A DNA stretch of 64,000 nucleotides from a virus: positions 49,578-113,577 of IMG/VR virus record IMGVR_UViG_3300006735_000001; one strand, written 5' to 3'. Of this stretch, positions 4,786 to 60,861 are shown piece after piece. The stretch's first letter is position 1. Each line of letters starts with the position of its first letter. Position numbers and translations under genes: made by a program. The notes beneath the pieces are model-generated. The model was not told where the DNA came from. It worked only from the letters and a program-made list of their open reading frames with translations, and made no database searches.

Positions 4786-5256
4786 TTAATTTTTGTTGTT
4801 ACTTATTGTTTTAAATTTTTCTGCCCCTCTAGAACCAAAATATGCTACATAGACAGTTATTAAAAGTGACTTGAGTAAATCTACCCAGCCACCGTCAATA
4901 CTAAAGTCTATATCAAAACCATCTAACAATATAAATATAACTAATGAAACAGTCAAAAATATTAACGTTAATGGTCTTGTATTTTTAGATAAGTATGAGT
5001 CAGACTTCATATCTGCCTGCCATCTCTTACTTACTTCTTGCATCTCAATCATGTCTTGTTCAAGAAGCTTCAATGCTTTTTCTTTGTCTTCTGGTGGCAA
5101 TACAATATCAGGCTCCTTTTGTATAAGACCTTTAACAACACCCAATAGACCTGCATCAGGCAATGCATCACCAACTAAACCAACAATACTTGGAACTTTC
5201 TCTGTTAGGAATTTTCCAACCTTAGTTTCACTAAATCTTTTCTTTGGCTTACTCAT
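4786..5256 (-). CDS. Holin, GTA/3-TM holin superfamily
   Basis: A 156-residue protein. It would form pores in the inner membrane late in infection. Residues 75-98 carry the superfamily signature: VSKRWQADMKSDSYLS, then RPL directly before a membrane helix (about 97-113). A second helix covers about 126-142, and a first, more amphipathic one, about 22-47. The 'W..DM.SDS.LS...RP' pattern is what I know from the 3-TM holins of gene transfer agents and many phages. The N terminus is basic. It sits among small basic genes and a fibre gene. No separate endolysin gene is visible in the window; the nearest muralytic domains are inside the 2185-residue virion protein. Confidence 0.75.
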   Translation of the reverse strand: MSKPKKRFSETKVGKFLTEKVPSIVGLVGDALPDAGLLGVVKGLIQKEPDIVLPPEDKEKALKLLEQDMIEMQEVSKRWQADMKSDSYLSKNTRPLTLIFLTVSLVIFILLDGFDIDFSIDGGWVDLLKSLLITVYVAYFGSRGAEKFKTISNNKN

Positions 5257-27500: not shown

Positions 27501-30500
27501 AATTGCATTTGTACTTCCCCATATGGGTTTACTTGTATAGATACGGTATATCCACCTTTATTACTTTTAATAAATATGTCCCGTGCTATTTCATCATTAA
27601 ATTTATTATTAAACGTAGAACTTTCTTGTTGAACCTTTGTTTTACCTTTGTTGTCTTCTTGCTTTTTTTCTGCTTGATCTATTAAATCAAAAGCTAACTG
27701 ACTAAACTCATCAGATGTTAGTTGTTTTGCTTGCAATGTTGCAAAACCATATGTACCATTTGGTGCTTTAACAATTAAATAATATCTATCTGTTCCATTC
27801 AGTATTTTATCTTCATATATTTGTTGTGATTTTAATCCACTTACTGTATCATCTATTAGTTTTCTTCTTTCTTCTACTCCAAATTCAGGATCATTATCTA
27901 CTGAAGTTATTTCATTTATACTTTTAAATTGACCTTTATTTCTTTTTACATCAAAGATAAAAGTGTCTCCTTCTTCATTTACAAATTGATATTCTAATTC
28001 AGATACTGGTTTAGGTACGTTATCAAAATCTATTATAGCACCAGTCAGTACTGTTCTAATATCAAAATTAATCATGTCTTCAGAATCAAAAGAAATTGAT
28101 ATTTTATTATTATCACCTAATAGTTTTCCAGCTTGTGTTGCTATCAAAATATTAGTGGTAAACATATCTTGTACGCTTTGAACTAATTCATTATCTTGCA
28201 TTCCTTCTGGAAAGGTTGCATTGTTAATTATATTTTTAACTTCTTTAATAGTAATATTTCTAGGGTCAAGACCTAAAGATTCTGGCGTAGGTTTGATTGC
28301 ATAATTACCATTATCCACATATCCAAAAACCACCCCTTCTTCTAATGCTCCTAAGTTTTCTTTTTGTAACTTATCATTAACCTTATCCAATAAGATTAGA
28401 GGCAGACTAAACCCAATTTTATAAACTGATACAGCTTGAATTAATTGAGGGTTAGGTTTCTTTAAAGTTGGATTAGTAGGAATTACATATGGTCCTTTTA
28501 TTTCACCTGATTTAGGATCTCTTTCAATAACTAAATTAAGTGTTTGTATTTCTTCAGCACTCAGACTACTAAGTATAACTGCTAATCTACGTTGTGCTCT
28601 ACTAAATTTATCTGGTAATGATTGCTCATTGTCAAAAACACGTGGATAGATTTCTACATTTTTACCAAAATTTAATTTAGCAAAATCATCAGTCAAAGCT
28701 TGAACATCTCTTTCTTGAAGTGTATATTCAGATCTAAAGTTACCTAAACCTACTGATCTCATTGGTTCTACATCAGCTGGATTTTTATCATTATCTTCTT
28801 TTTTTCTAAGGAGAATTCTTCCTTTATCACTCACCATTTTTGGTGTACTCTTAACTAACCACTCTTGTCCATCTCTATCTATTACAGTCTCACCTAAATG
28901 AATAGTATAACCATCAAATAAATATGCACTATCATCAGGCATTAGAGAGTCTAAATAATTTAATGCATCACTCGCACTATCCGCTGTATTATATATTCCA
29001 GCTATAAAACCTTTAAATTTTTTAGGTAAAAGACTAAGTACATCTTCTTTTAAAGGATTATTATTTTTATCTCTTAATTCAAAATATGGTTCAGGATCTA
29101 TATCAACTTTAGTTACATCAAACTTAGTACCTTGCATGAAAGGACCTTTACCTTCATTTGCTGGACGAGCAGTCTTAGAAACTGGTGCTCCATCTGAATC
29201 ATCAATAATATCATTTAATGTTAATCCTGCTTCTGATAATAATTTTTGTACAATGGGGTCTTCTATAGCCTCACGTGTCAATAAAAATTCTGCAAAGCCT
29301 TCTTCATTTGTAACTTGCCTTTCACTTACAGTAATCTTAAAAGTGTTTCCTTCTGAATCTTTACTATCATAACCTTGTGCCCATACTTTTTTTATATTAT
29401 TAAATGTTGTTTGAATAAGTTTTGCCTCTTCACTTGATCTCCATTTATTAAAACTATCTACTGGTTCGTTTTTGGAAGATGTTAGTGCTGCATATTTATT
29501 ATAACTCCTATTTAATAAACTATTAAGCATTGGTGTATTGTTTGGTTTTTTTAATACAACGCTTATACCCGCATCACTTAATATTTCTTCTTGTTCTTTA
29601 TTAGTAACTTCACTAACCTCTGCTTCACTAACCTCAGCATCATTTTGTGCTTGATCAGACTTGCTAACCATACGGTTATAATTTGCTATAATAGCTTGAA
29701 TTTTTAACCACTTAGCCTTATCATTTGTAGCATTGATTTGACCATACTGAGTAAAGAAGTTTTTTAACACAGATGAATCTCCTGTCTGCAGGAACTCAGC
29801 TGATTCATCTCCAGCTACAACTACATCTTCTTGAGACATTAGTTCATTAATTAACTTATTTGCTAACTGTATGTCAATATATTTTTCAAGATTCTTTTTT
29901 GTTGTTTCATAATTATTTTCAAATCTTTCTTCTACTACTGATAATGTTCTATTATATATCTCATCAAAGTTTTCAGGCTTCATTAAATATAGTAAAGCTC
30001 TATTGTATATTCCTATGTTACCATCTAAATATGTATAGTCTATAATATCTATTAGTGCTTTACGTACTTCTGTTGGATCTACAAAAGTTTGAGTTAACCC
30101 ATCTTTCTGGGATTGACTTGCTAAAAATTGAACATAAGCTTGAAAAGGTTTTTCAATTGTTTTCATCTTACGTCTATCAAATGGCCCTTTACCATCCTTG
30201 GTTCTATTTTTTGGATTTATAATAGTAGTAAAAAATTTAGCTATTAAATCAAGTTTTTTTGTTTTAAAGGCTAAATCTTTTTTTACCTTATCAGTTTGCT
30301 CTCCAGCCTTTAACAAACTTATTTCATCTGTTAAAATCTGCATTTCCTTTACTAAACTTTCTTTGCTAGTTAAAACTGTTAAATCACTAGCAGACATATT
30401 TTTAAATAGTGGTTCATTTTGTAATCTACTATTGATAGATGCAGCTCTCTCAGCAGCTCTAACCATAGAGTTCTTGGTAAACATAAGAAGCATTCTTGAA

Positions 30501-32887
30501 TGATCCCATGCTCTGCTTTGTAATACTGCTCTTTTATAATCTTCTGATTCAGGTGGATATTGCGCTGGATTAAATAAATTAGGAAACTCATCTCTAAAGT
30601 TATTATAGTCAGTTTGCATTTCTTTAATGTTATCAATTTGATCTTGTAACTTTTCTCTTGCTTTCCCATTCTTAATTTGGGTGGGCGTAAAACCAAAACC
30701 AGCTTCATACAAAGCTTTATCATCTAACTGCATGAAATCTTTAATTTGATCAATAAACAAATGAGAAGTCCCAGTTTCAAAAATTGCATGAGCATTAGCA
30801 AATCTTGATTCATCTTGCATGTTTACAATATTATATAAATCTTCTTGCATCCTAAGATCATTGCTAAGTTGTTTTTGAAAAGTAAGATTAAACATTTTAG
30901 GATCAAAAACAGACAAAGGATCATTTGCCATATTGTCCCATGTATTATTAAGTGCATCTAATGCAGTCTGTACAGTTTTTTCTTTTGCATCTCTAAATTC
31001 TTGAAACGCTTCTTTTTGCTTTTCTGTTGCCAAACCTGTTAAACCAACTTGAGAACCACCGTACTTATATAAAGAAGGTATACCTTGAAATAAAAGCTTT
31101 TGTGGACCTTGTACAAAACCACCCATTAAAAACCCTGACATAAACACTTCAAAACCTTGACCAGAAAGTTGCTCTCCCATACCAGCCTTAATATTAGCTT
31201 TTCTTAAAGCCCATCCTCCTGATAAAGGATCATCTAATATAGCACTGTAGTACCCAGTAGTTGCAGCAGCTACCGCCTCTTGAGATACTTCTTGCACACC
31301 TTCTGCAATATTATTTGCAAAGTATCTTAATGATGAACTAGCTATTAACCCGGCACTTCCCCTAACACCTCCAGCTTTAACTCCATTCCACCATGCTGAA
31401 ATACCAGTGCCTCTATCTTTAAACATTTTACCTACATTAGGTAAACCTGTTTTAGGATTAATACTCTTTCTTGTTCTTAGAATTCTTTTACCTACATTTT
31501 GATAACCCTCTCTAATAGTCATACCCAATGTTCTTCTATAACCCCCTAAAGCATTGCCAAGAACAAACCAGTTACTTGCATAAATAATAGGTGCATTAAT
31601 CATCATAGTCTCAAATGCTGCTTCATGAGACTTAGATATAATCTCTTGCATATCTTTATCAGTGACAGTTTCACCTCTAGCTTCTCTTTTAGTTACTTCT
31701 GAGTTTACTAAATTATTAGCAACCATGCCTCCTTCAAGTCTACCTTCTGATACAGCAAGATTTACAGCACGTAAATCTCTATAGAACCCACCAAATAGTT
31801 TAGTAGTATTAGCAATGTTTCTTGAGTTTTGCGCAACTGTTTTAGTAGTATTCCATCTTTTGAGAGCAAATAAAGTATTAGGGGTAAACGCTTGTCCTAA
31901 AACTTTAGTGCCATTTATTGAACCTTGCCAAAAATTCTTTGCATTTTGAACATCTTTTAATTTTTTTAAAAATTTATTTGCATAAAATGAATTTTTTATT
32001 CCTTGACCAATAGTTTTTACTCCACGAAAAATATTCCAACCAGATCTTGCTACTGTTCCAGCTACAGCAGCACCTGCTGCGGGTGTCGTAGTCCCACCAG
32101 ATGGTATTGTACTTAATCCTAATGCTGAAGTACCTAATACCATTGCTAATTCTTCTACAGCTATAGATGCTATTATACCACCAGTATATGCACTATTTAA
32201 AAAAAAGTTATTAGCAAAACCACCAAAGCCTCCTCTAGTACTATTACCAACCATCATTGCCTCTTCAAATGCTTCTGCAGTTTCATCATCACCACTAAAT
32301 ACTGAATCCCAATCACCAGCCATTACATCTGCTGCAGTTCTATATGAACTCATAAATGCAGCACCACCTAAAGCTCCAAGCTCACCACTCATTCTAGATA
32401 GATCATCCATTATATTGCTATTAGCATTATAGTAAGTTTCCATATCAGCATATGGTACAAATCCTAAATTCTTATATTCTGGATGCTCATAATATCTTCT
32501 AAAATTACTTGACTTGACATCAAATGCAATAGGAGATACATTAATCTTTCCTTCACTTAAATCACCCTGCATTATTTGTTTTGAAGATTCATAACTACCT
32601 GGTTGAGGTGGTCTTGATTGAGAGTAAGGATCAAAATTTGTTGTTGCTGAGCCAGGTAAAGGATTTGAAATATTAGTAGTAGGAACAATAGAATACCTGT
32701 TTATCATTTCCTGAGCAGCTCTTACATTAGTAACGCCACCTGGATCAAGCATCATAGCATCAGCTCTATCCATATCTGGACTTTCAAACATGTCTTCTAT
32801 AGGAGTAAAAGTAAAATTACTTTGAGGTAATGTTTGTTCTAACTGATCTGTTTGTATAGATTGTTCTAAGCTATTTTGATTTAGCAT
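18578..32887 (-). CDS. Giant virion RNA polymerase/metallopeptidase protein
   Basis: A 4769-residue protein. At D3782-H-D3784-G-D3786-K it has the DxDGD Mg2+-binding loop of two-barrel RNA polymerases, preceded by R3743-I-P and GFLP-like DFMPTAMGS, the arrangement I recall from beta'-like barrels and from giant crAss-like phage proteins. A candidate beta-like barrel begins near residue 3295 (DAQGYTTVKGF) and runs to about 3450 (FDGQKYLKF, then KAEKMRVVPL). Structural work on the crAss-like phage phi14:2 showed that such a protein is a virion polymerase transcribing early genes. Residues 2302-2306 (HEAFH), with E2368/E2369 in YYEEYMSDEF, form a separate zincin metallopeptidase site. Near the N terminus (about 210-290) are hydrophobic, Ala/Gly-rich stretches (GGIIASIAVEELAMVLG) that could contact membrane. 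The size is about twice that of phi14:2 gp66. It lies between a 1116-residue virion-type gene and the nuclease gene with 3-11 base gaps. Polymerase call strong; ejection inferred. Confidence 0.82.
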   Translation of the reverse strand: MLNQNSLEQSIQTDQLEQTLPQSNFTFTPIEDMFESPDMDRADAMMLDPGGVTNVRAAQEMINRYSIVPTTNISNPLPGSATTNFDPYSQSRPPQPGSYESSKQIMQGDLSEGKINVSPIAFDVKSSNFRRYYEHPEYKNLGFVPYADMETYYNANSNIMDDLSRMSGELGALGGAAFMSSYRTAADVMAGDWDSVFSGDDETAEAFEEAMMVGNSTRGGFGGFANNFFLNSAYTGGIIASIAVEELAMVLGTSALGLSTIPSGGTTTPAAGAAVAGTVARSGWNIFRGVKTIGQGIKNSFYANKFLKKLKDVQNAKNFWQGSINGTKVLGQAFTPNTLFALKRWNTTKTVAQNSRNIANTTKLFGGFYRDLRAVNLAVSEGRLEGGMVANNLVNSEVTKREARGETVTDKDMQEIISKSHEAAFETMMINAPIIYASNWFVLGNALGGYRRTLGMTIREGYQNVGKRILRTRKSINPKTGLPNVGKMFKDRGTGISAWWNGVKAGGVRGSAGLIASSSLRYFANNIAEGVQEVSQEAVAAATTGYYSAILDDPLSGGWALRKANIKAGMGEQLSGQGFEVFMSGFLMGGFVQGPQKLLFQGIPSLYKYGGSQVGLTGLATEKQKEAFQEFRDAKEKTVQTALDALNNTWDNMANDPLSVFDPKMFNLTFQKQLSNDLRMQEDLYNIVNMQDESRFANAHAIFETGTSHLFIDQIKDFMQLDDKALYEAGFGFTPTQIKNGKAREKLQDQIDNIKEMQTDYNNFRDEFPNLFNPAQYPPESEDYKRAVLQSRAWDHSRMLLMFTKNSMVRAAERAASINSRLQNEPLFKNMSASDLTVLTSKESLVKEMQILTDEISLLKAGEQTDKVKKDLAFKTKKLDLIAKFFTTIINPKNRTKDGKGPFDRRKMKTIEKPFQAYVQFLASQSQKDGLTQTFVDPTEVRKALIDIIDYTYLDGNIGIYNRALLYLMKPENFDEIYNRTLSVVEERFENNYETTKKNLEKYIDIQLANKLINELMSQEDVVVAGDESAEFLQTGDSSVLKNFFTQYGQINATNDKAKWLKIQAIIANYNRMVSKSDQAQNDAEVSEAEVSEVTNKEQEEILSDAGISVVLKKPNNTPMLNSLLNRSYNKYAALTSSKNEPVDSFNKWRSSEEAKLIQTTFNNIKKVWAQGYDSKDSEGNTFKITVSERQVTNEEGFAEFLLTREAIEDPIVQKLLSEAGLTLNDIIDDSDGAPVSKTARPANEGKGPFMQGTKFDVTKVDIDPEPYFELRDKNNNPLKEDVLSLLPKKFKGFIAGIYNTADSASDALNYLDSLMPDDSAYLFDGYTIHLGETVIDRDGQEWLVKSTPKMVSDKGRILLRKKEDNDKNPADVEPMRSVGLGNFRSEYTLQERDVQALTDDFAKLNFGKNVEIYPRVFDNEQSLPDKFSRAQRRLAVILSSLSAEEIQTLNLVIERDPKSGEIKGPYVIPTNPTLKKPNPQLIQAVSVYKIGFSLPLILLDKVNDKLQKENLGALEEGVVFGYVDNGNYAIKPTPESLGLDPRNITIKEVKNIINNATFPEGMQDNELVQSVQDMFTTNILIATQAGKLLGDNNKISISFDSEDMINFDIRTVLTGAIIDFDNVPKPVSELEYQFVNEEGDTFIFDVKRNKGQFKSINEITSVDNDPEFGVEERRKLIDDTVSGLKSQQIYEDKILNGTDRYYLIVKAPNGTYGFATLQAKQLTSDEFSQLAFDLIDQAEKKQEDNKGKTKVQQESSTFNNKFNDEIARDIFIKSNKGGYTVSIQVNPYGEVQMQLYDKNNKKDVATKTPKLTRDEVNDPKISVEAKLVTLISRLNEEIESTGVVITPAKFSKGFPEDATYDEILDKTTTKTATNVFKGQKVRLNANSAGIDAGRGVPDAANASGTFQMTEPYSGKPIGPVLQTPARTSNEAENSVLDITETEYTDMVEGNVPVPVAFLDQIAEVKRRGGEFSLREQGIYDTNSEIIDMKVAIAPNPTTASTNPNQKFDDVVSTVEKQIRALRDPVTGEVSDKNRAKFKSLTTQLYEAKSAARRGNSTQPLGTKTKGKDSNGDIIYLNSDEKAVEDKSIESYIKTIDKGIKNGKITLEKGREMVLKRITKDYDFSMDKMGIIVDYIQDRLDGSIPQVGNNKSSWLMFRDGKQPGLPVKQNNINIQIEELKVSLLEGVAPRDHFKTLQKNEEYQKLLKERDRQDKGLVNKILSGVFTPVFDDLDIVNINDFMMEAERILPDFISIEDIAVLGDNMKAGGVRVGAFQMYLNDLAGGLNVKGTIYTGAQNPFKYHEAFHAVYRLLLTPEQQKRLQSVARKEVRAKLRAEGKSFEKELQKFKNSANTYSDMSRKQLEKLYYEEYMSDEFDKFKINPRNTNTNTEVKSLFNRIIEFIKAFIDRFTTSQLQRTFEDIDAGKYKNASVVSNEFTESVLNDGPIIANALVPFKKIVVKDTEGFDYLDGNIADMIVRGIAASYLARSAKAELPYNPKDIFDEVVDDYQWLYSPNNEVNDLKTDEQKEKLKQIESAFLNYSTLIIEQADNLLEMITDKSVIQEENIDNVEDSVGVRTVSQYDLDASLIGGLKAIPSDVRKYIALTSVSEKDFFGNEYLTKGERIIVPVDFVDAFNSILKSTSNITNPLDFLKSMYFFGEDNVQGGAIVRKLLHDVGYSSESLLTDESFPAEIQNSSLLQSFINGFTNVRLDYLFVERSLAGDVRIYTASQKDDINSQLTRWQQAYYVAKRKLRADSNKTTNVINQIKDFDKALKGSNEMTDKALDKMSKAYSQDLYDNVGIKLSSLFIKVSLLQNRNGKTKKQKSLKKLYSDAKVIQDSGTGSDFSTMSLLSEQLQSNQDIFDEKGGILGRLRELSIANAPFDETVGATIHRNSNGDLVYAHQKPTFNLLFVNNLNNIDFYNNLLADPYKEQNFLLNSEAFKKMSQDRQIRMLRMEGSKVASGALSESNVEDGVSIDNTDYFRTQTYGNFSPKEFSLTQINLYTAFFNTKSGRVDTVIDSQGNESAIAPIFPKVMEASNTSELIGLPVIKTVEGSNAIITDETLDLFLDGIKNEFTRINRESNIDTATETVLGYNDVGGRGFSFFNNTTLLSQEFKNELSKVAYDQGQARNTISFDDAIKFTPYTLSQIREDIRTQLNNEYSDYVQYLIDENIYDEISKKVKDGLVVAEGVSRNNVNESSESLNLIPTNARYNLRQIFFNQKLNAAAFNEAQHGDQARLFKSSADITKRAKGNNNAGTPAYSEVIDTKKGILHTTDDISYILFEEPIENNIDIADAQGYTTVKGFRHLKFGTDSLSTGQAQLLDAMEDGLSESYQSSVYFGNEETPIGLVQDKDMVNSKKYAYFDGQKYLKFTITTLFKEYTSNLNPVTQVWEAKPGMLTLHNLRVAMEKIDASKDTITVAGPLSASKAEKMRVVPLSDINDNIGALEVLPHSTLSAKHMRLQQITPSNQLEGPDPTQIAEIITNIPVQFYKTKVPGLRDLNGDALDLKQIITAYNEVKTKKFKLSFNNKRNLIYEFESAVNDFNISNNTDITPKLAAFLKFAEKSLKAGKTSTNLLEFFSSVDGKQNYNLNNPITAPKFEQLFLNYFAKGVFSQKVPMVKLTLVSPFGVKKYRRVYDVEIVNGETIPTRSEIVRDKVFDRLGLTVEKDLQDLTPGNIPAKGYIVLDRLRVVPVYSNPKNPNSYTGERAMEMQMPAHHSSVRDLIENTNAPIPNVIARQFAVRIPTDDFHSSTPSLLVDFMPTAMGSVGMYAQELIEIAGSDHDGDKTFAHIKDFYVQDGVFKEYGKTKNKREEYLEYVRYSNRLVKAKGSQLQSVFELYSNNELDARIDSSPDSAVIDIATDPIDKQGGGMLLDTAKALAVLGLPISPAQYSEYKLKYGYPFEAPFNNQLLDYKFALVGNESMTTGNNPISYTPTSEEPINAALKLLEEKEQKIIGLDSNNYFRDKRADTPYDPSSFLGQAIAFQDNKGASIGASVLPNLYLSNLVEAGSEITDKTFTPIIDGITYNSFDPGSVEQAKINQDGKAAIVSMTVDNPTNRFVGKAGFNKHATSLAMNMLSLGMPMETIILLINTPTIRQVYKNASESNYSPYRVNKEIKKAFAVILNTFDDKKPSVPKLTSEMMSDYINANYNENLDPAEFYDVDLSILREFAKASRLQEFTNNMAAVTGLTKGLGKSMQNISRRKKQIEKLFDKDAPINLNKVFGPNTWHGTYIEGFNLLTNNLLPATFLRSSIDFQEILSLIADQMDLTNQATNEEMLDKISLDLLSYLTIKGYRNNMMENESHVVGGLTNDILYPSKQENIVDIVNRLKETPEGVDNDFLNGFLIVTDSKNSKSGLNLAEANTFRVMNSLMKVDLQNGFSRLYGSPNTRQDAMNLVSYMMVKDGLQIGYGTLLDAVNPYILNKYLSHVNTVNDALRGKQSIDTVFGQDIRSLINEFIKGYTVAAASNDKVFTLSSSDVGVSIEITPEGTQSLVVDWLEYYRDLGIEPIRNDKGFYRGPRLYSFNYLVQGEDGPTVSRAVAMEEWDVQDIQKKMTVTYSLESTKGSPRQNGIGFMFGDLISTNDLNKYRSENQKSSDIMPGESMAPISSYENAVKEMALKQQNSNITAVQGTPMQDSGIKVKLDPEAKETNIEDTAKLAEQISANSEAVEEDERQAYTIEDVDTSNPEMTDPQTSLFNELKLSLEEIYPVLYNFWTDTINPSAENRKIMRAQGAGTFKKFIGKFNDKNLKYESEQDYVEDVKKCILKK

Positions 32888-41446: not shown

Positions 41447-44400
41447 TTAAGAATTTCCTATGACATGTGTCATAACATAATTAGGTATAGACATATTTGC
41501 TAATTTAGCTGATTTATAATTCTTCCTATTAAGTTTATCATATACTCTTTGAGCTTGTTCTTTTGAACCTCCTTCTTTATATATACCCTTAATGTAGTTT
41601 GTATAAATTTTATTCATAGATCTTAAAGGGCCTCCTTTTTGTTTAAAATATTCTATAATATCATTATACTTAGGATTAATAATAATATTTTCAAACTCAT
41701 CATTAAATTTAGAGTCCTTCCTCTTTAAGATTTTATTAATATAATCACTTGATTCATTATTTATAGAGTCTGTCCAATCTGTAGAATTATATATATCTAT
41801 ACCTTTATTTTTTAATTTTGTTATTGAATTTTTTGCACCAGTTGGACCAGCATTATATGCAAATAAAATTTTAGCCAAAACAGATTCATCATTACCTTGA
41901 TTTAAATAAGGTCGTTCACTTAAATAGTTCATCCATTTTTTTTGTGCTGGGATAGCCTGATTTATATCATATGGATCAAAATCATCACCTACTATTTTTA
42001 AACGTTGCATTTCTTCAATAGTTATAGGTGTAAATTGTGCAACACCTTTAGCATCCTTTTTAGATGTAGCATTTGCATTAAAAGATGATTCTTTAAATAA
42101 TTGTCTTAATAATAAATCATTACTTATAATTGGTGCACTGTTCTTTGTAATAATTTGTGCTCTGCTTGGTGTAGAAACGGGACCTCCTTCTTGATATTTC
42201 TTTTGTTTTATATTTAAATACTTAGAATTCTTTAATGCATTCCGTGTATAGGCATCTCTATTAGGATCACTACTACTAGTTCCTGCATATAATCTTGGTA
42301 AATCTTCTATGGCTACATTACCACCTTCTCTGTTATTACGCAAGTATGCTAAAATACCTACTGTACCTAATGCAGCTTTTTTTGGATCATCAAAGTCTTC
42401 ACCACTTGTTATACCTAAACTAGCTAATGATTTTACTAACTCAGGTTCCTTTAGTATTTGACCCCATCTAACTTGTGTTAATCCCATACTAGCATTATTA
42501 GGATCAGATATACCTACATTATCAAGTAAATTATTTACATTTCTTTCTGCTTTATAGTCTGCACTTCCTCTAGGTCCTATTTTTAAACTATCAGGTAAAT
42601 CTAAATTATCAATAGCTTTATCATAAAGAGATGATCCAAATTTTAGACCAGCTCTTACAGTATTACCTATTGCACTATGTGTATCTCCAAAACCTGTTTC
42701 ATTTCCAAATATACCAAAAGCTAATCCCGCTAAATCATTATATACATCACCATTAACTTTTAAATTTTTCATTACAAGTTGTTTATTATCTTGCAGTGAC
42801 TTAGCAAAAGGTACTACTGTATTATTGTATTCTTCATCATCGTCACCAAAAAAATCAGTTTCATTAAATTGATCTTCTTTAAATTTATCATCTATAGATA
42901 CTTGTATAGGTTTATAGTTTAAAGTATTAACGGTTCTATTTATTCCTTGCCCTTTTTGTATATTACCTCTATCATCTTCATATTCTAAATAATCATTTCT
43001 TTTAGAACCAGCCTTAAAATTTAATTGACCATTTTCAAATACAAACTTATTTCCCTCATCTTCTGGTAGTATAAATACTTCAGAGCTTTGTTGCAAATAA
43101 TCTGTCAATACATTTAAACTGCCTTGATTACATCTTATGCAACCATTAGATACTCTACTGTTATCATCATCAATATATCCTGCATGAAGTGAGGTTCCTA
43201 CATTTTGACCAGATTCATTAGATAAATTAAAGCTAGGTAAATCCATATAACCAGCTCTGTTTATATTAGATATTTTATATCTTCCTGCTCCTGTCATTTT
43301 ATTACCAGCTGACCAATCAATATTATCTGGTGATATTTCATCTTGACTAATAGTACCATCTTGATTTATATCTACATATTTTGTAACTGTTTGAGCATCA
43401 CCCATAACTGCACCTAAATCTACAGGAGCACTATAAATAGGTTCATTTGGATTATTACCTGGCTCATAGACATGCATCAATCCGGATTGTTTATCTACTA
43501 TTACATAAGGTTTATTATTATTTGATTGATTCTGAAAGTTAACAATCAAATCAGCTTGACTCATTTTATTAAATTCATTAGCCCTATTTTTTACATCAGC
43601 AATATCTTCATACTCATCTATATCTACAACATCAGTAGAACTATATGGACTAGCAACCAATTCATTTTGAACTTGTATATCTTGTGCTTCTCTTTGTCTT
43701 AATCCAGCATTTGTCATATCTTCATCAGATGGATTAAACTCTTCACCTTTTAGATTTGTTCCATAGTTTTTATTATTATAATTAAATATTTTATTAGGAC
43801 CATAGTAATCTCTTGCTATTCTAAATGCAGAATTAAAATCTTGTGCACCATTAATTCTATCATCAACTTCTACTACACTTAATGTAGAAAGAGGTGTATC
43901 AGCAGTATTAGATGGAGGTAAATTAGTAGATGGCGTAGGTTTAAATTTATTAGGATTATCTAATAACTCTGATCTTAACTTCATATTTACATCATAACTA
44001 CCATCAGTTAATCCTTGTTCTTTAGCAGCTGACCATGGAGTTCCAGTAACATTTTCCCAAATATCACTTACTGCACCACCTTGTTGTGCTTTAGGTAATG
44101 TTTTAATCTTACCGTTCTCAGTTCTAGCATATCTATTATTTTCATTTTCCATGCTAGGAATGAGTGTGCCTGAATAAGTTTTACCTTTCCATTGCCAGCT
44201 TACTGATCCACCTTCTTTAAAACCTAATTTGTTTTTCCAGTAATTTGGTATATTTTTAATACCTTCCATAGAGATGTCTATATCATTAATGGGAATACCA
44301 GTCATCTCTGCAAAACTATCAACATCAGAAAGCCCCTCAACCTGAGGAATAAATTGAGCTCTTTCATTATATAATCCTTTTAATACATTTGGTATTGTTC

Positions 44401-47400
44401 CTTCTGGTAGATTATCATATATATCTTTTATATCATTACCTAGTTTACCTAATCTATTTTTTGCCATTTGAACTCTACCTGTACCAGGTTTATCACCACC
44501 AGGAAGAACATCTGATAAAAATACATCAAGATCAGCCAATGTTTTATTTCCTAATCTTTCAAAATATGCAGGATTATTTCTATTTTTTATTGCTTTTATT
44601 GCTGTAGGATTTTGTAATACTGTTTCTACTGCATTATTTATTTCATTTCTATCTAAACCATCTAAATAATTTGTGAGAAGATTAATGGTGTCACCACTAA
44701 GATCTACTTTTGCTTCTTCTTTTACTAATTTTGCTAACCCATCAAATCTACTTGTCCTTTTTCCTTTTACACTTCCTGGAACTATTTTATCACTATAATT
44801 TTCTAAAATATTATCCATAACAAAATTAGGATCAGTAATACCCCCTCTACTATTTTCTGGTGAATTAGGATCCATACCTAAGGCCAAACATACTCCAGTA
44901 GCACAATTAGAATCTAAAAAGTCATAATTATATATGCTGTTATCCTCCAATGATAAAGGAAGTTTAGTTGTGTTCATTCTTAAATTACTATGAATAGAAC
45001 TTCTTTCAGTACCTTCAAATAATTGTGCTTGATCTACAAAACCTTTTATTTCTTCATCAGATAAATCTAAATCTAAAACTCTTACCTCATTTTTCCCTTT
45101 ATAATCTTTTTCACTAACACGCTTATTTCCTGAACCAGTTGACCATCTATTTACACGGCCAACTAAATCAGTACCAGGTATTTGATTTACTTGATCACCT
45201 GTATCAGTATTAATTAGTACAGCTTCAATATGTCCAGGACTAAACTTTTTACTTCCATAAGGATATTGTATAACTCTTACATTATATTTTGAATAATCTA
45301 TTTCTTTACCGTCTTGAGCCATATTCCAACTTACTAAACCACCTTCTTTTTGTTGGTTTAATCCCGCTGCTCCTATAATAGCTGGAGGTGCAATAGCAGG
45401 AAAAGCTTTATTATTCATTAATTTAGATAACTTTGGATATGTTGAAGGATCTAAAAAATCTAATAATCTAGTATTACTAAAAAAACTATCTGAAAATCCA
45501 GGATTCTTCTCAATTAAACCAGCAGGTCTTGCAGAAAAACTTTTTTTTGCTGCATTTAATATGCTAGGGGTTATTTCATCATATATGTTATTTATTAAAC
45601 CCCTCTCTAGCATACTTCTCCTTAGTTCAACAGCAAAAGGTATAGGTTCATCTCCTATATATCCTTGTCTAGGGTTAGGACTTCCAGTTGCAAAGTAATC
45701 ATAGTCACTTGTTAATTGTTTACTTCCAGTATTGATCTTAGCTTTGTTCAAACCAAAACCAGTACCAGAAGACAAATCTAATTTAGTATTAACTAAATCG
45801 TTAGGTTTAAGTACTCTGAATTCATCACTCAAACCTATAGGTCTGTTAGCATTAAATAAATGTCCAATTTCATGATCTAAAGTAGTATTAAGACTTTTAC
45901 CACTAAACATAGGGCCTACACCTATAGTTCCTTTTCCAGGTTTAAGACCTAATCTAGTTGTAAATGAATAATCTCCTGACATAGGAGAACTTCTATTTAC
46001 AGTTATTACATCACCCACTGTACCTCCAGCACCTGGATTCCTAAAATATGCATTAGTAAATAAACCTTGATTTTCACTTATAAAATTTTTTGCTATATCA
46101 TAGTATTCACTAGAAGGATTTCCTGCACCATCATTAAACATATTACGTGCATGATGATTAATGGTATTTCCTTTTAAATTTGATAATTCTTGATATCTAG
46201 CTAATGCTGCTGATTGAGCTGCATCATCTAATGTAGTACCTGCTGGCGGAACATAACCAGATGCTTTTAAATGATTTAACTCTTGATTTGCTAGTCTATT
46301 AAAACCTTCTGATCCAGGTTTAATCTCATCTAGTCTCATTGTTATAAAATTATCTATTTCATCAGCATTTCTACCTAACATTTCTAAACCATCTGTTAGA
46401 TCAGGATTACTACCAGGTGTAGCGTCAAAGATCCTATCTCTTACACTTTTTATTTTTTGCATGTCTACATCTACAACATCATCAAAATTAGTAGGTGAAA
46501 TACCTCTGTCATTAAATTGATTTATTTGGATTCCTCTACCACTTGTAGAAGCTCCTGTAAAATATTTACCTGCATTAAGCGCTGGTATACCCATAGATAA
46601 AGCATCAAGCCCTACTGTAGCAGCATTACCCAAAGTAGGGTTATCAATAAACTGTTTTGTGTCGGGAGCTATATTACCTGCTCCATATACAAAACCTACT
46701 CCATCTAATGTTTGACCAACAGTAGCTCCAGTAGAAATTGGTCTATAGTTCATTGCTTTAGAAAAAGGTTGCCCTATATACTTAGAAGCAAATCTTCCCG
46801 CAGGACTGTTAGCTAAGAATCTTAATCCTTGTGGTACTCTACTAAGTCCTCCTACTGCACCCATTCCCATTCCTAATACAGGAGCTGTTGCTGCTCCAAT
46901 AATATTCATAGTATTCATCTGCATTGCATCTCTCTTCTGCAGCATGTCATTCCACTGCGGTCTGAAAAACTCATCCATTGTATAATCCCCAAGGGCTGTT
47001 CCTCTTTGATAGTTTCTCCCATACTTTTGGTTGTATTCCTCTAGAGTCCCTTTGAAAGGTGAATACCACCAATCTGGATCATTTTCTAAATATTCAGGTT
47101 TCTCATACTCATACTGATATATATCCTTTCTTCCCCTACCTGTATTTAATAATCGTGAAACTACATTTCCATCTTTATCTGAGTCACGGAAGGCTGTGTC
47201 TTTTTTTCTTTTTGGTGCACTTAAAACAATTTCATCTAAATCATAACCATCAGTTGTCATTTTAGTTGGTATAACCCCTTCTTCTAATTCTACTGTTTCA
47301 CCAGCAGTCTGCATTTTTGGTAGTTTTAGATATTCAGGTCGGTTTGGTTCTCTTCCAAACAGTCTATCATAATAATTTTTATCATAAAGCTCTCTAGTAT

Positions 47401-48004
47401 ATTCTGATGGAGTGTATCCTCCATCTTCTGCCCATGTACCACCTGTATACCCGTCTATATTATGGTATTTAGACTGATTACTAAATGTTGGATGATTTGG
47501 TTTTTTCCATTTATCACTTCCATGATTATCCTCATCCATTTTCATATAGTCACCAGACTTCCAAAAACCTTGAATATCATATGCTCCAAGATCCATTGTA
47601 ATATCTCTACCCTGTCTTTTAGATTCAGAAGTTACCCAAGCATCATATTTAATTTTTTCTTCTTCTGTAAGTGGTGTATTATACTTTTCTTTAAATATCA
47701 TTTCAGGGTCACCACCAACTTGAGCCATAGGTACTTCAACAACATAGTCTGCATCTTTGAAGTTATAATTTAATTCTCCAGGTTTCATATCCTGAACCAT
47801 ACCATTATTTCCATATCCCCTAACTGGAAAGTCTACACCTTCCATAGTAATATTATTTGACTCAATAATATTAAACGGATTGTTTACATCAGGGCTATCT
47901 GATTTATATCCTTCTACAGATATGTATTGTGTTATATTCTGTAAGAACTCATTAGGTCCACCCGGAAGCCCTCTTCTTTCTGTTTTTGAATAACTTTTTT
48001 TCAT
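41447..48004 (-). CDS. Multi-enzyme cell-wall-penetrating virion protein
   Basis: A 2185-residue protein with at least five enzyme-like sites in one chain. (1) A zincin metallopeptidase at H711-E712-x2-H715 (LDHEIGHLFN) with a later Glu in FAVELRRSM. (2) A permuted NlpC/P60-like site with H925 (PGHIEAV) before C1034 (SNCATGVCLALG). (3) A YkuD L,D-transpeptidase domain with H1607 and S1619-N-G-C1622-I-R, interrupted earlier by a canonical EF-hand loop at 1545-1556 (DINQDGTISQDE). (4) A lysozyme-like domain at E1769 (GNETGFG) with SMGLTQVRW. (5) An SLT-type transglycosylase at E1972 (FKESSFN) with AKGVAQFTP and AYNAGPTGA. The N-terminal 350 residues are structural-looking, followed by Gly/Ala-rich hydrophobic stretches near 370-400. 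KxGG segments separate the modules (QKEGGLVSW, FKEGGSVSW, YQEGGPVS). It overlaps the muzzle-like gene by one base. Most likely it opens a path through peptidoglycan on infection. Confidence 0.78.
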   Translation of the reverse strand: MKKSYSKTERRGLPGGPNEFLQNITQYISVEGYKSDSPDVNNPFNIIESNNITMEGVDFPVRGYGNNGMVQDMKPGELNYNFKDADYVVEVPMAQVGGDPEMIFKEKYNTPLTEEEKIKYDAWVTSESKRQGRDITMDLGAYDIQGFWKSGDYMKMDEDNHGSDKWKKPNHPTFSNQSKYHNIDGYTGGTWAEDGGYTPSEYTRELYDKNYYDRLFGREPNRPEYLKLPKMQTAGETVELEEGVIPTKMTTDGYDLDEIVLSAPKRKKDTAFRDSDKDGNVVSRLLNTGRGRKDIYQYEYEKPEYLENDPDWWYSPFKGTLEEYNQKYGRNYQRGTALGDYTMDEFFRPQWNDMLQKRDAMQMNTMNIIGAATAPVLGMGMGAVGGLSRVPQGLRFLANSPAGRFASKYIGQPFSKAMNYRPISTGATVGQTLDGVGFVYGAGNIAPDTKQFIDNPTLGNAATVGLDALSMGIPALNAGKYFTGASTSGRGIQINQFNDRGISPTNFDDVVDVDMQKIKSVRDRIFDATPGSNPDLTDGLEMLGRNADEIDNFITMRLDEIKPGSEGFNRLANQELNHLKASGYVPPAGTTLDDAAQSAALARYQELSNLKGNTINHHARNMFNDGAGNPSSEYYDIAKNFISENQGLFTNAYFRNPGAGGTVGDVITVNRSSPMSGDYSFTTRLGLKPGKGTIGVGPMFSGKSLNTTLDHEIGHLFNANRPIGLSDEFRVLKPNDLVNTKLDLSSGTGFGLNKAKINTGSKQLTSDYDYFATGSPNPRQGYIGDEPIPFAVELRRSMLERGLINNIYDEITPSILNAAKKSFSARPAGLIEKNPGFSDSFFSNTRLLDFLDPSTYPKLSKLMNNKAFPAIAPPAIIGAAGLNQQKEGGLVSWNMAQDGKEIDYSKYNVRVIQYPYGSKKFSPGHIEAVLINTDTGDQVNQIPGTDLVGRVNRWSTGSGNKRVSEKDYKGKNEVRVLDLDLSDEEIKGFVDQAQLFEGTERSSIHSNLRMNTTKLPLSLEDNSIYNYDFLDSNCATGVCLALGMDPNSPENSRGGITDPNFVMDNILENYSDKIVPGSVKGKRTSRFDGLAKLVKEEAKVDLSGDTINLLTNYLDGLDRNEINNAVETVLQNPTAIKAIKNRNNPAYFERLGNKTLADLDVFLSDVLPGGDKPGTGRVQMAKNRLGKLGNDIKDIYDNLPEGTIPNVLKGLYNERAQFIPQVEGLSDVDSFAEMTGIPINDIDISMEGIKNIPNYWKNKLGFKEGGSVSWQWKGKTYSGTLIPSMENENNRYARTENGKIKTLPKAQQGGAVSDIWENVTGTPWSAAKEQGLTDGSYDVNMKLRSELLDNPNKFKPTPSTNLPPSNTADTPLSTLSVVEVDDRINGAQDFNSAFRIARDYYGPNKIFNYNNKNYGTNLKGEEFNPSDEDMTNAGLRQREAQDIQVQNELVASPYSSTDVVDIDEYEDIADVKNRANEFNKMSQADLIVNFQNQSNNNKPYVIVDKQSGLMHVYEPGNNPNEPIYSAPVDLGAVMGDAQTVTKYVDINQDGTISQDEISPDNIDWSAGNKMTGAGRYKISNINRAGYMDLPSFNLSNESGQNVGTSLHAGYIDDDNSRVSNGCIRCNQGSLNVLTDYLQQSSEVFILPEDEGNKFVFENGQLNFKAGSKRNDYLEYEDDRGNIQKGQGINRTVNTLNYKPIQVSIDDKFKEDQFNETDFFGDDDEEYNNTVVPFAKSLQDNKQLVMKNLKVNGDVYNDLAGLAFGIFGNETGFGDTHSAIGNTVRAGLKFGSSLYDKAIDNLDLPDSLKIGPRGSADYKAERNVNNLLDNVGISDPNNASMGLTQVRWGQILKEPELVKSLASLGITSGEDFDDPKKAALGTVGILAYLRNNREGGNVAIEDLPRLYAGTSSSDPNRDAYTRNALKNSKYLNIKQKKYQEGGPVSTPSRAQIITKNSAPIISNDLLLRQLFKESSFNANATSKKDAKGVAQFTPITIEEMQRLKIVGDDFDPYDINQAIPAQKKWMNYLSERPYLNQGNDESVLAKILFAYNAGPTGAKNSITKLKNKGIDIYNSTDWTDSINNESSDYINKILKRKDSKFNDEFENIIINPKYNDIIEYFKQKGGPLRSMNKIYTNYIKGIYKEGGSKEQAQRVYDKLNRKNYKSAKLANMSIPNYVMTHVIGNS

Positions 48005-54416: not shown

Positions 54417-55376
54417 TTAACAAGTGGGACATGTACTAGTTGATGTAGAATTACCTACAGCTGTGTTTTGAGCAGGAGAAATACTAGGCTGAGCAGGTGC
54501 ATAACTTAAAAACATATTATAAAAATTATGATATTGAGCTCTACGGTTCATTGTCCATACCTTTCTCATTTCTGCAAAGTTAGGAGTGTTCACAAATGTC
54601 AATGCATTATTTCTTGAAGCACGTAATCTTTGCTCTATTAATCCTAATTGATCACCAACTTTTTCACCTTGAAACATCATGTTTTCAAGTATACGTTGTT
54701 TAATAGCATACTCATAATACTCATTACAATATGGATGATCTAAAAGTAATAAATCTCCTTCTGCATTTTCCATAGCTCCTTGATAACTTAAATATACTTT
54801 ACCAGTAGTAAAGTTTGTTAAAAGAAAACCATCTTTAATTTCTGCTACATCTAAAGCTTGAGCACCTAAAGCAGGACAATAGCATACTTTATCATTAAGT
54901 CCAGTTATTCTTAATTGAGACCAATGATTGTATATTCTAAATTGTTCTGGACCTATTCTTTGAATAAGCTGATGTGAATTTTTATCATCACAAGTTTTAA
55001 TTACACATACATCTCTGCATTTAGAATCATCACATGGTCCTGATTCTCCTGGAGCTGGTACATAAGGTACATCATTAAAAGTTTCTACATGTGTACCTGA
55101 AGGTAGTGTAGAATTTATTTTATACTCGCCACATCTAAAACCATAATTAACATATTGAAAATCCATAGGTAATTGTGCTCTGCCATGCTCAACATCTATT
55201 ATTACTTCTTTAGTTCTATGTATTCTTAAACCTAAATCATAATTAACTCGTTGTGCCACTTTAATTAATTGTTGTGGCTCTATCATTCCTTCTAATGCAT
55301 AAGTAGAAAAATCAATAGAGACACTCTCCATTAATTGACTAAATGTTTTATATTTTTGTGAAACTCCATTTCCCAT
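54417..55376 (-). CDS. Ring/tail-hub-type virion protein
   Basis: A 319-residue protein. It opens with KTFSQLMESVSIDFSTYALE and IKVAQRVNYDLGLRIHRTKE, the helical start I associate with one of the crAss-like ring (tail hub) proteins. A Cys-rich mid-section (PCDDSKCRDVCVIKTCDD, near residues 118-135) may bind metal. The region around residues 205-260 is helical (NEYYEYAIKQRILENMMFQG). The C terminus ends in a Ser/Thr/Pro tail with CPTC. Placed between the muzzle-like gene and a second ring-type gene, with which it overlaps by one base. Role inferred from context and family memory. Confidence 0.6.
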   Translation of the reverse strand: MGNGVSQKYKTFSQLMESVSIDFSTYALEGMIEPQQLIKVAQRVNYDLGLRIHRTKEVIIDVEHGRAQLPMDFQYVNYGFRCGEYKINSTLPSGTHVETFNDVPYVPAPGESGPCDDSKCRDVCVIKTCDDKNSHQLIQRIGPEQFRIYNHWSQLRITGLNDKVCYCPALGAQALDVAEIKDGFLLTNFTTGKVYLSYQGAMENAEGDLLLLDHPYCNEYYEYAIKQRILENMMFQGEKVGDQLGLIEQRLRASRNNALTFVNTPNFAEMRKVWTMNRRAQYHNFYNMFLSYAPAQPSISPAQNTAVGNSTSTSTCPTC

Positions 55377-56050
55377 TATTGTCTATTTAGATTACGTTTA
55401 TTGTCTGAATCTTCAGAAGGTATTTTTAATGTATTCATCATTGTACCTACAACTTGGTTTTCTATTTCTGCAAATAAAGCTTCTGGTATGTATATCTCCT
55501 GTTCATATCTAGGAGTACAGTTATTTGTTTCATCACAATCCCATTTAGTTATATCTGAGTCAAATACTCCTTCAACTTTAATAGCATCCCATTCTATATT
55601 TGGACAATATATATAACCATCTAACCACCAAAAATATAATGTTCTATTATATTTAAATGTAGTTGTTTTAGTCATTGATGTATATGTCCCAGGTTGAGTT
55701 GCTTGTAATTCTTGTGAACCATCTATTGAGCTAATAGTACGGATTAAAGGCCCCCAATATCCTTCAAACATAGAAGGTAGTTTATGTTTTGTACGTTTTA
55801 TTGTACAACCACTTTGAATCCCAGCACAATGTGCTTCTACTTTATCTACCTCAATAAGTTCTACGTATGGTAATGTTTTCCATACTGAATTAAATTTAAT
55901 TAGTTTATTCCTATAATCTTGTCTCCTCATTAAAAACTGAGCAAACTTCTCTATTAAACTATAAATATATCTATCTGTAACAAAAGCGTCTTGTACCTCT
56001 GCTTTTACCTGGCCTCTAATTCTAGATATTGCTTCTGCTATTGTTGACAT
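55376..56050 (-). CDS. Ring/tail-hub-type virion protein
   Basis: A 224-residue protein. The N terminus (IAEAISRIRGQVKAEVQDAF followed by FVTDRYIYSLI) matches an opening I recall from a conserved crAss-like structural protein located beside the tail ring and muzzle genes. The middle is beta-rich with aromatic patches (RTLYFWWLDGYIYCPN), and the end is a helical block (EALFAEIENQVVGTMMNTL). It lies 5 bases after the 188-residue gene. Assignment by motif memory and gene order. Confidence 0.6.
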   Translation of the reverse strand: MSTIAEAISRIRGQVKAEVQDAFVTDRYIYSLIEKFAQFLMRRQDYRNKLIKFNSVWKTLPYVELIEVDKVEAHCAGIQSGCTIKRTKHKLPSMFEGYWGPLIRTISSIDGSQELQATQPGTYTSMTKTTTFKYNRTLYFWWLDGYIYCPNIEWDAIKVEGVFDSDITKWDCDETNNCTPRYEQEIYIPEALFAEIENQVVGTMMNTLKIPSEDSDNKRNLNRQ

Positions 56051-58623: not shown

Positions 58624-60861
58624 TTATGGTGAAGGTGGTGAACAAGCAGCTGTTATACTACTTTCAATTACAGATGGTGATGCACTAGCATTCCATGCAG
58701 CTCCTGTAGCTGTTGCAAGATCACGCCATACATAAACTCTATCAGAAGCTGATCCACCTGGAGGCATATAAAATAAATTTACTCCAGCACCTAATACAAA
58801 TACTTTAACACCTTGAACATTTGCTAAATTTCCTATTGCTTGTACTTGGCTAACATCTGTTAATGTGAATGCGTCATCATTACCACTTGGAAGACCATCA
58901 GTTATTAAAATAACATATTTTGCAACATTAGCTCTAAATACATTAAGGAATCCACCTGACAATACTTGTGCTAATGCCATATCTGTTGGATCTGGACCAT
59001 TATTACCACCTCCTAAAGGTACACCTGCTGTAGGATTTCCTGAATTAAGTTTGTTAATTTGAGTTGTTGCTGATGATCCATTATTATCTGCAAACTTTTC
59101 CCATGCAGTAATAAATTGCGTATTACCTACACCTTGATTAACAATTTTTTGAGTAGCTCCTAAAGCTACATAATCAGATGAAGTATTATATGTTGGTACT
59201 TGATTTACTCCAGCTGTCTCATCAGAAGTTACTATACCAATTCTATAATTGTTACCACCTTGAACTTGACTAGATATTGTACTTACTAGTGATGCAAAGC
59301 CTGTTTTAATTGCATTTATTTCAGAGCCCATTGTAGATGTATAGTCTAATATTAAAGCTACATCTAATCCAAGACCACAAGCTGATCCCGCTGATAATGT
59401 TTGGAATGCTACTGCTGAACAAGTTGAATTAGTTACACCATTTAATGTAACTGTAACTTGTACATTATAATTTGTATTAGGTGTTAAACCTGTAAAATTA
59501 TGAGTTACGGTTGCTGTTGGATTATTTATAGTTGTAGTCTTTTCTATAACATTTGTAGCTACATTAATTATATCTATTTTATATGTTGCTGCTGAACCTA
59601 ATAAATTTGCTAAACTTACTGTCAAACCTGTTGTTGTTATACTACTTATTATTGGAGTAGCACATGGTACTTTACCACCTATTGTATTTGTTTGTACATC
59701 ACTACATGTATCCACTCCATTGGTTACACCAAATTCAACTCTTACAGTTAAAGCACTTTGAGTATTTAATGAGCCTGTACTAAATGTTAATCCTGCTCCA
59801 TTATTTTGTTCTGATACAATACTAAATGTAGTAGTTAATGATACTCCACTTGTATCAGTTACAATAATTTTATTACCTCCTGTTACATCATTAAATGTTC
59901 CTGGTATACTTGAGCCTGAGAAATCAAATAATATTCCATTTATTAGTCCAGATGTATTTAATGTAGTTGAAGTACTATAAGCAAATGTAACAGATGAACA
60001 TCCTGATTCACAACAACTTGATTGTACATTAGCTAACGCTGTGTATAAGTCATCTATAACTACCCAAGCATTTTGAACACTTTGAGCAAGATTTAATGCA
60101 CTGTTATTCCATCCAGTTATTGATCCATATGATGTACTTGATGTTGTTAATGAGTTGCTACTACCAGTTATATCTGATTGAACTATTGCTAAATTTATTG
60201 CTGAAGGTAAACCTACGGCATCTCTTAAATTACAAAAAGCACTTTCTAGTGCTAATACTACTACAGATACATTAGTTAGATTTCCTACATTTACAATACA
60301 TGTAGGTACTATTTGTTTTTCTGCAACTGTTCCTGAACATGGTAATACACATGCTTCTAATACATCAAGTCTATTACTATAGCTTGTTAATGTTGCATTT
60401 ATAGTTTGTATGCTAGATAAATTAGTACATACTTGATTTGCTATAAGTGAAGCAAAATCATCTAAACGTAATTGAGTAACAGGATTTCCATTAGTATCAG
60501 TATACTCTAAACATGTAGGTAATGTCATTAATGGTAATTCTGCTCCAGGTGTTGGATCTACTGCTGATTGTGCATTTGCACAAATAGCCACTATCATATC
60601 ATTTAATACAGGAACTAAAGTTGTTGGATTTGTTCCGGGAATATTTAAACAATCTATATTTAACCCTACTAAACTTGGATTTGCTGTAACACCATTAGTA
60701 ATAATATCACACACCTTAGTACCTAATTTAGCCGTAACTTCACTTATTGTATCTCCGCTACATAAATTTATGCAGGAAATATCAGGACCTTGCCAAATTA
60801 CGCAATTAGAGGAAATGTTATCACAACCATTGGTAGAAGCACTTGAACTTGTTGGGATCAT
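58624..60861 (-). CDS. Adhesin-like protein with FnIII and vWA domains
   Basis: A 745-residue protein. The N-terminal 300 residues contain Cys-flanked repeats (SNCVIWQGPDISCINLC near 18-34, then PTCLEY, PTCIVN and AFCNLRDAVGLPSAI), a pattern I recall from flavobacterial phage appendage proteins. Residues about 395-490 are a fibronectin type III domain (LTPNTNYNVQVTV). Residues about 500-740 are a von Willebrand A domain: D506-Y-T-S-T at the metal site, where Thr replaces the two Ser of the canonical DxSxS, and YVILITDGLPSG. The protein is low in charge and rich in Thr, Ser and Asn. A candidate promoter and an inverted repeat lie upstream. Host-surface binding is likely, not shown. Confidence 0.7.
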   Translation of the reverse strand: MIPTSSSASTNGCDNISSNCVIWQGPDISCINLCSGDTISEVTAKLGTKVCDIITNGVTANPSLVGLNIDCLNIPGTNPTTLVPVLNDMIVAICANAQSAVDPTPGAELPLMTLPTCLEYTDTNGNPVTQLRLDDFASLIANQVCTNLSSIQTINATLTSYSNRLDVLEACVLPCSGTVAEKQIVPTCIVNVGNLTNVSVVVLALESAFCNLRDAVGLPSAINLAIVQSDITGSSNSLTTSSTSYGSITGWNNSALNLAQSVQNAWVVIDDLYTALANVQSSCCESGCSSVTFAYSTSTTLNTSGLINGILFDFSGSSIPGTFNDVTGGNKIIVTDTSGVSLTTTFSIVSEQNNGAGLTFSTGSLNTQSALTVRVEFGVTNGVDTCSDVQTNTIGGKVPCATPIISSITTTGLTVSLANLLGSAATYKIDIINVATNVIEKTTTINNPTATVTHNFTGLTPNTNYNVQVTVTLNGVTNSTCSAVAFQTLSAGSACGLGLDVALILDYTSTMGSEINAIKTGFASLVSTISSQVQGGNNYRIGIVTSDETAGVNQVPTYNTSSDYVALGATQKIVNQGVGNTQFITAWEKFADNNGSSATTQINKLNSGNPTAGVPLGGGNNGPDPTDMALAQVLSGGFLNVFRANVAKYVILITDGLPSGNDDAFTLTDVSQVQAIGNLANVQGVKVFVLGAGVNLFYMPPGGSASDRVYVWRDLATATGAAWNASASPSVIESSITAACSPPSP

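Follow-up and report, generated by a model that had tools for sequence, protein, structure and literature searches.

A modular candidate ejection protein behind the muzzle gene of a crass-like phage, with up to five predicted enzyme modules that include a YkuD domain

Introduction

The phage T7 protein gp16 is a very large internal virion and ejection protein with one muralytic domain, an N-terminal lytic transglycosylase, and the swapping of a single muralytic or hydrolase domain is known among ejection proteins (PMC8954989). In phicrAss001, the muzzle gp44 is followed by the cargo proteins gp45 and gp46 and by RNA-polymerase subunits (PMC10172136); the same article makes no mention of peptidoglycan or lysozyme. 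Here we describe C1, a protein encoded in a 64,000-nucleotide stretch (the window) that covers positions 49,578-113,577 of the IMG/VR record IMGVR_UViG_3300006735_000001, a virus contig of 113,577 bases. Like gp45 and gp46, C1 lies behind the muzzle and ahead of RNA-polymerase cargo genes and has Gly-Gly spacers, and like gp16 it is very large; unlike gp16, the C1 family carries up to five enzyme modules, including a YkuD domain, between constant ends.

In the Cellulophaga phage phi4:1, gp040 and gp041 are both virion proteins by tandem mass spectrometry (MS/MS). The first has the N-terminal domain of C1 and the second, right behind the muzzle homologue, matches the Pfam phage tail lysozyme; unlike C1, they are separate genes, and no YkuD, zincin or NlpC-like module was detected in either. 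The YkuD family, which comprises L,D-transpeptidases (Ldts) as well as Csd6, Pgp2, Bd1075 and DpaA, has its fold, its His and an S-x-G-C motif in common with one module of C1, whereas this module differs in being phage-encoded and fused to a lysozyme-like domain, and in having SNGC in place of the usual SHGC. A YkuD domain in a phage had been regarded as unusual in a preliminary description of this DNA; it is rare but on record, with 10 entries in the PhaLP collection of phage lytic proteins (PMC8310338) and a single occurrence in a survey of gut endolysins (PMC13284279). No paper on a YkuD domain in a crass cargo protein, or on such a payload cassette, was found in a literature search that left most subscription journals and preprints outside its range.

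Results and Discussion

Enzyme-like sites of C1 and their conservation

The five enzyme-like sites of the preliminary description are all present in the intact 2185-residue frame of C1, namely HEIGH, the pair H925/C1034 (placed there around residue 980, which lies between the two), H1607 with SNGCIR, E1769 and E1972. They mark five separate enzyme-like domains, four of which, the YkuD one among them, are probably aimed at the bacterial cell wall. Loss of the catalytic residues in homologues, named beforehand as the outcome that would count against the proposal, did not occur, and these residues are invariant among the distinct relatives, which alone were counted (8 to 25 per domain).

By its sequence, the SLT module certainly belongs to the lytic transglycosylase family and is homologous to T7 gp16-type proteins. 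It reaches 35.2 bits with PF01464 against a cut-off of 21.3, its E1972 is kept in 12/12 relatives, and it matched 473 cultured-phage records by tblastn (best 1e-8); most of the listed records are T7-like internal virion proteins or transglycosylases.

The YkuD domain, as judged from motif, profile and model, is real and well supported, in agreement with what had been read from its complete motif. A YkuD-type motif occurred in none of 2000 residue shuffles of C1, while in the 23 relatives [ST]-x-G-C-I (part of S1619-R1624 in C1) is always kept and the His is kept in 22, the remaining one (L074; loci of relatives are numbered with an L) having a His that the alignment displaces. The PF03734 profile stayed under its cut-off of 23.4 bits in the hmmscan of whole C1 (19.7 bits, E 0.0014) and passed it in the search of the window's genome (26.9 bits); it was found in 7 of 30 C1 proteins, with 26.4-38.1 bits in relatives and a best E of 6e-13. 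A fold model built from 7 sequences, with a predicted local distance difference test score (pLDDT) of 66, gave 46 matches in PDB at E<=0.001, and those listed belong to the L,D-transpeptidase family, including LdtMt2 and YkuD. Bacterial relatives of the YkuD-lysozyme unit were not confirmed by a peptide-pattern scan of genome contigs, which is sensitive only to relatives that keep those peptides. In phicrAss001, gene 30 (L090:6405-6866), near the lysis genes, is annotated as an L,D-carboxypeptidase/transpeptidase; its product was considered as a homologue of the YkuD module and rejected, given that hhalign found no relation.

The two lysozyme-like motifs of the preliminary description are both retained, E1769 being kept in 25/25 relatives. 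From this conserved motif and weak fold matches, its module may tentatively be called lysozyme-like. Pfam gave no clear match for this module (Phage_lysozyme2 appears in 1/30 members and was not mapped to it), and hhalign gave no profile link between it and the SLT module.

The zincin and permuted-papain-like assignments are equally tentative and are suggested by conserved motifs and weak matches. The HExxH motif (H711-E-I-G-H715), expected 0.004 times in residue-shuffled copies of C1, is kept in 8/8 relatives together with the downstream E786, and both H925 and C1034 are kept in 8/8. Neither of these two domains has a significant Pfam match, and in the relative L012 Lnb_N matches weakly at the Cys motif. 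No match was obtained in cultured phages for whole C1 by tblastn, for the YkuD-lysozyme query or for the NlpC-like and HEIGH queries, and searching the uncharacterised C1 domains against PDB sequences gave nothing significant.

Exchange of payload modules among relatives

Relatives came from 47 loci found by a muzzle-alignment scan and from a later scan that added others, including L074. As a rule, the gene after the muzzle overlaps the muzzle stop with its start or begins only a few bases away, and the start of C1 overlaps the stop of its muzzle gene, as in relatives with both genes on the locus. Complete post-muzzle proteins have 406-2185 residues in the 47-locus set, and that of L074 has 2588.

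Modules were surveyed in 44 distinct proteins with the N-terminal domain, some of them ending at contig ends. The N-terminal domain is constant and the C-terminal one nearly so, and the payload between them varies: phages with 56-68% identical muzzles carry NlpC only, SLT only, YkuD-lysozyme, HEIGH-YkuD-lysozyme, or none of the five. The combination of all five described for C1 holds for the window protein, and for it alone in this survey; it is not a fixed machine. L056 has NlpC-YkuD-lysozyme-SLT, and in L002, a close relative by whole-protein search with 925 residues, the HEIGH, YkuD, lysozyme-like and SLT modules are missing and, besides the spacer and both ends, the NlpC-like part is the one module of the five that remains. 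The YkuD and lysozyme-like modules are direct neighbors wherever a relative is long enough to include the two, often with LysM in front. The same region of C1 has a fold match (E 5e-28, 33% identity) to a LysM domain-containing protein of Virus NIOZ-UU157 (UniProt A0A7S9XDV9), a database entry listed with no function. C1 therefore looks like an exchangeable toolkit for passing the cell envelope, with its ends kept and its enzymes swapped.

Three further observations concern these payloads. In L002 (L002:8001-10775), residues 76-114 of the payload region match a SET domain (Pfam 7e-5, over the cut-off), which is unexpected in a phage virion-type protein. A recurrent CGWxWKAxDGGxDxxxCHKCG, possibly a zinc knuckle, stands just behind the N-terminal domain or later in L021, L037, L038, L046 and others, and the window protein is without it. 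In the Leptolyngbya phage Lbo-JY46 (L092:19566-21053), the gene after the muzzle homologue combines the N-terminal domain with a weak transglycosylase match, a resemblance in sequence which suggests that the system extends beyond phages of Bacteroidota.

C1 as a candidate ejected cargo protein

We consider it likely that C1 is a modular envelope-crossing cargo or ejection protein of a crass-like phage, analogous to T7 gp16 and far more elaborate. This reading is favored because ring proteins 1 and 2 and the muzzle lie directly upstream, a crass context, and because the SLT module is related to T7 gp16-type internal virion proteins. The N-terminal family also includes structural proteins of the Cellulophaga phages phi4:1 and phi17:2 (tblastn 6e-6): its hidden Markov model (HMM) gives 55 bits with phi4:1 gp040, whose record states experimental MS/MS, and 41.7 bits with the post-muzzle protein of Lbo-JY46. 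Further support comes from the cell-wall theme of the Pfam matches in 30 C1 proteins (SLT in 9, LysM in 8, YkuD in 7, PG_binding_1 in 2), from the invariant catalytic residues, from the differing payloads of phages with similar muzzles, and from the distant relative L076, where a LysM-YkuD-lysozyme gene lies between the portal and major head protein genes.

The constant ends would probably serve in packaging or docking, and between them an exchangeable set of envelope-acting enzymes would be held on flexible junction peptides. At infection, C1 would be extruded via portal and tail into the periplasm, where glycan strands may be cut by the SLT and lysozyme-like domains, peptides or proteins by the NlpC-like domain and perhaps by the zincin too, and stem peptides may be edited by the YkuD domain. 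Jointly these enzymes would open and manage a local hole for the passage of protein and DNA, as T7 gp16 does with one transglycosylase.

The genome is of crass type and C1 is encoded right behind its muzzle gene, which is the mark of a Crassvirales cargo protein. The preliminary description took it for a virion or tail protein; the virion-type family agrees with the MS/MS-detected relatives in phi4:1, whereas the position in the cargo block behind the muzzle makes C1 a candidate for ejected cargo rather than a structural protein of the tail.

Several results weigh against this assignment. As a virion or ejected protein, C1 is a candidate by indirect evidence, through its relatives in phi4:1 and phi17:2. 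It has no profile similarity by hhalign to gp45, which follows the muzzle in phicrAss001, although the next gene product, C2, shares a segment with gp45. C1 was thus not supported as a gp45 orthologue; it is located in the crass cargo block and is not a demonstrated orthologue. With the HMMs used, 13/44 relatives, including intact C1s of 406-432 residues, have none of the five modules, and therefore no single one of them is required by every phage. The fold predictions, which had been asked for at each site, agreed with the proposed family for YkuD and did so poorly for the lysozyme-like, NlpC-like and HEIGH sites: matches of the lysozyme-like module to LT_GEWL are weak, and the NlpC-like model has a core pLDDT mostly of 75-95 with a non-significant top PDB match (E 0.16) to TseH, an NlpC/P60-like effector. 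The HEIGH model has a pLDDT of about 30-45 over most of the domain, and support for a zincin fold is absent.

Hydrolysis or transfer by the YkuD module

Two activities can be proposed for the YkuD module, both being sub-hypotheses of the cargo reading that concern this module. Most LD-transpeptidases have Arg at the pocket position two past the catalytic Cys, where Csd6/Pgp2 and YafK-like hydrolases have Ala (PMC8938487); of the 23 sequences compared, 21 have Asn there, the window protein and L074 have Arg, and none has Ala. The best PDB match of the model is Bd1075, followed by Ldts, YkuD, Pgp2 and DpaA, of which Bd1075 (an LD-carboxypeptidase), Pgp2 and DpaA are hydrolases (PMC8938487, PMC10653827). 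By sequence the pocket residue leans towards transfer, and by the model the best fold match leans towards hydrolysis.

There is close to an even chance that the module is a hydrolase that contributes to widening the hole, either as an LD-carboxypeptidase or by cleaving 3-3 or protein-wall bonds. The ranking of these hydrolases among its fold matches agrees with this, as do the invariant pairing with a lysozyme-like module and the fact that the remaining identified modules degrade or bind the wall. Nonetheless, the pocket residue differs from the Ala of known hydrolases, and the fold model is moderate (template modelling score to the query of about 0.2), which makes the ranking among YkuD enzymes unreliable.

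A true L,D-transpeptidase, which would reseal the hole after entry by 3-3 cross-links or anchor the channel to the wall by coupling to meso-diaminopimelate, is possible, and we hold it with less than even confidence. The Arg or Asn in the pocket is in its favor, although a single pocket residue is weak evidence, and most of the listed fold matches are transpeptidases, although the top one is a carboxypeptidase. The LysM-YkuD order in relatives resembles that of bacterial Ldts. On the other side, every partner module with an assigned family is a hydrolase or a binding domain, and the known ejection systems are without a joining step. A wider proposal is speculative and in our judgment rather unlikely: the phage would deliver a working L,D-transpeptidase with wall cutters, a single injected protein would first open the wall and afterwards either restore its cross-links or fasten the injection channel to peptidoglycan, and the payload between the constant ends would be a swappable cassette like polymorphic effectors.

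The junction peptide

A short motif, P[KM][AGM]Q, usually in the form LPKAQ(D/N)G and often preceded by GG, has 33 occurrences in the C1 and 11 in the C2 proteins of many loci, 45 in C1-C3, and 0 in 156,596 residues of the muzzle and other open reading frames (ORFs), where shuffling gives an expectation of about 1.5 for each set. In the window protein it lies at residues 91-98, 228-236, 894-901 and 1303-1310. None of 42 junction peptides falls inside a mapped enzyme module, these covering 20% of the residues, and in these sequences the peptide marks module borders.

These peptides could be cleavage sites, with C1 a processed polyprotein from which a phage or host protease, cutting at LPKAQ(D/N)G or GG junctions, frees separate virion enzymes. 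The enrichment of the peptide in C1-C3 and its absence from the mapped modules fit this idea, as do the adjacent separate virion genes of phi4:1 and the YkuD-lysozyme of L072, which is a gene of its own. We find it doubtful, given that no protease was identified (no search for one was made), that many GG spacers are also present in phicrAss001 gp45 and the text of PMC10172136 does not contain 'cleav', and that a flexible hinge for unfolding in extrusion accounts for the motif equally well.

That C1 is endolysin-like and serves chiefly for cell lysis when infection ends is highly improbable, because, although endolysins typically have wall-lytic domains and LysM and the top PHROG match to the SLT part bears the name endolysin, C1 lies within a virion-protein operon with the holin gene far off (4786-5256), its N-terminal family is structural by MS/MS in phi4:1, and its SLT relatives are internal virion proteins.

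Gene neighborhood

The features of C1 and its surroundings are collected in Table 1. By tblastn, relatives of the muzzle-like protein are found in Cellulophaga, Flavobacterium and Leptolyngbya phages and in the crass-like phage csAssE-Sib, and a Pfam match to VWA_2 (E 0.004, below the cut-off) points to a possible vWA-like insertion at its residues from about 1560 to 1730. The ORF at 58624-60861 has fn3 and a weak VWA match. In the cargo block, the 4769-residue ORF at 18578-32887 is, by its position, probably a virion RNA polymerase subunit.

Table 1. Positions in the window of C1, its modules and neighboring genes (res, residues of C1)
Feature	Position	Strand	Basis
C1, modular cargo/ejection-type protein (candidate), 2185 residues	41447..48004	-	uninterrupted ORF, follows muzzle gene
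Constant N-terminal domain (res 1-97)	47714..48004	-	HMM in 34 C1 proteins; matches to phi4:1, phi17:2 and Lbo-JY46
Gly/Ala-rich module (res 236-500), with the sole strongly hydrophobic stretch of C1 by hydropathy (res 366-387)	46505..47299	-	8 proteins; often precedes HEIGH
HEIGH zincin-like metallopeptidase module (res 565-877; H711, H715, candidate third ligand E786)	45374..46312	-	conserved residues
Permuted NlpC/P60-like module (res 900-1095; H925, C1034)	44720..45307	-	conserved His and Cys
Helical tail of NlpC-like module (res 1096-1264)	44213..44719	-	co-occurrence with NlpC-like module
Spacer module with junction peptide LPKAQQGG at its end (res 1262-1310)	44075..44221	-	5 proteins, differing positions
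YkuD L,D-transpeptidase-type module (res 1486-1659; H1607, C1622, R1624)	43028..43549	-	Pfam, fold match, conservation
Lysozyme/LT_GEWL-like module (res 1705-1934; E1769)	42203..42892	-	always directly behind YkuD; weak LT_GEWL fold matches
SLT lytic transglycosylase module (res 1960-2106; E1972)	41687..42127	-	Pfam 1e-8, PHROG 1e-16, tblastn
Constant C-terminal domain (res 2122-2185)	41450..41641	-	HMM in 25 C1 proteins
C2, next cargo gene after C1	38840..41386	-	56-residue segment in common with phicrAss001 gp45, hhalign E 5e-5
Muzzle-like protein, upstream neighbor of C1	48004..54402	-	PHROG virion protein 5e-38, tblastn to crass-like phages
Crass ring proteins 1 and 2 (markers of the crass tail block)	54417..56050	-	Pfam CrAss_Ring_1 1.4e-7, CrAss_Ring_2 4.4e-18

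Implications

The way in which crass-like phages cross the periplasm and the wall is not known in detail, and this locus family supplies candidates for the enzymes involved, which are exchanged between phages with conserved tails. It also gives a case of a candidate virion-carried L,D-transpeptidase. The constant ends and the junction peptide can serve as simple guides to payload modules in the genomes of related phages, among them payloads that are not directed at the wall, such as the SET domain.

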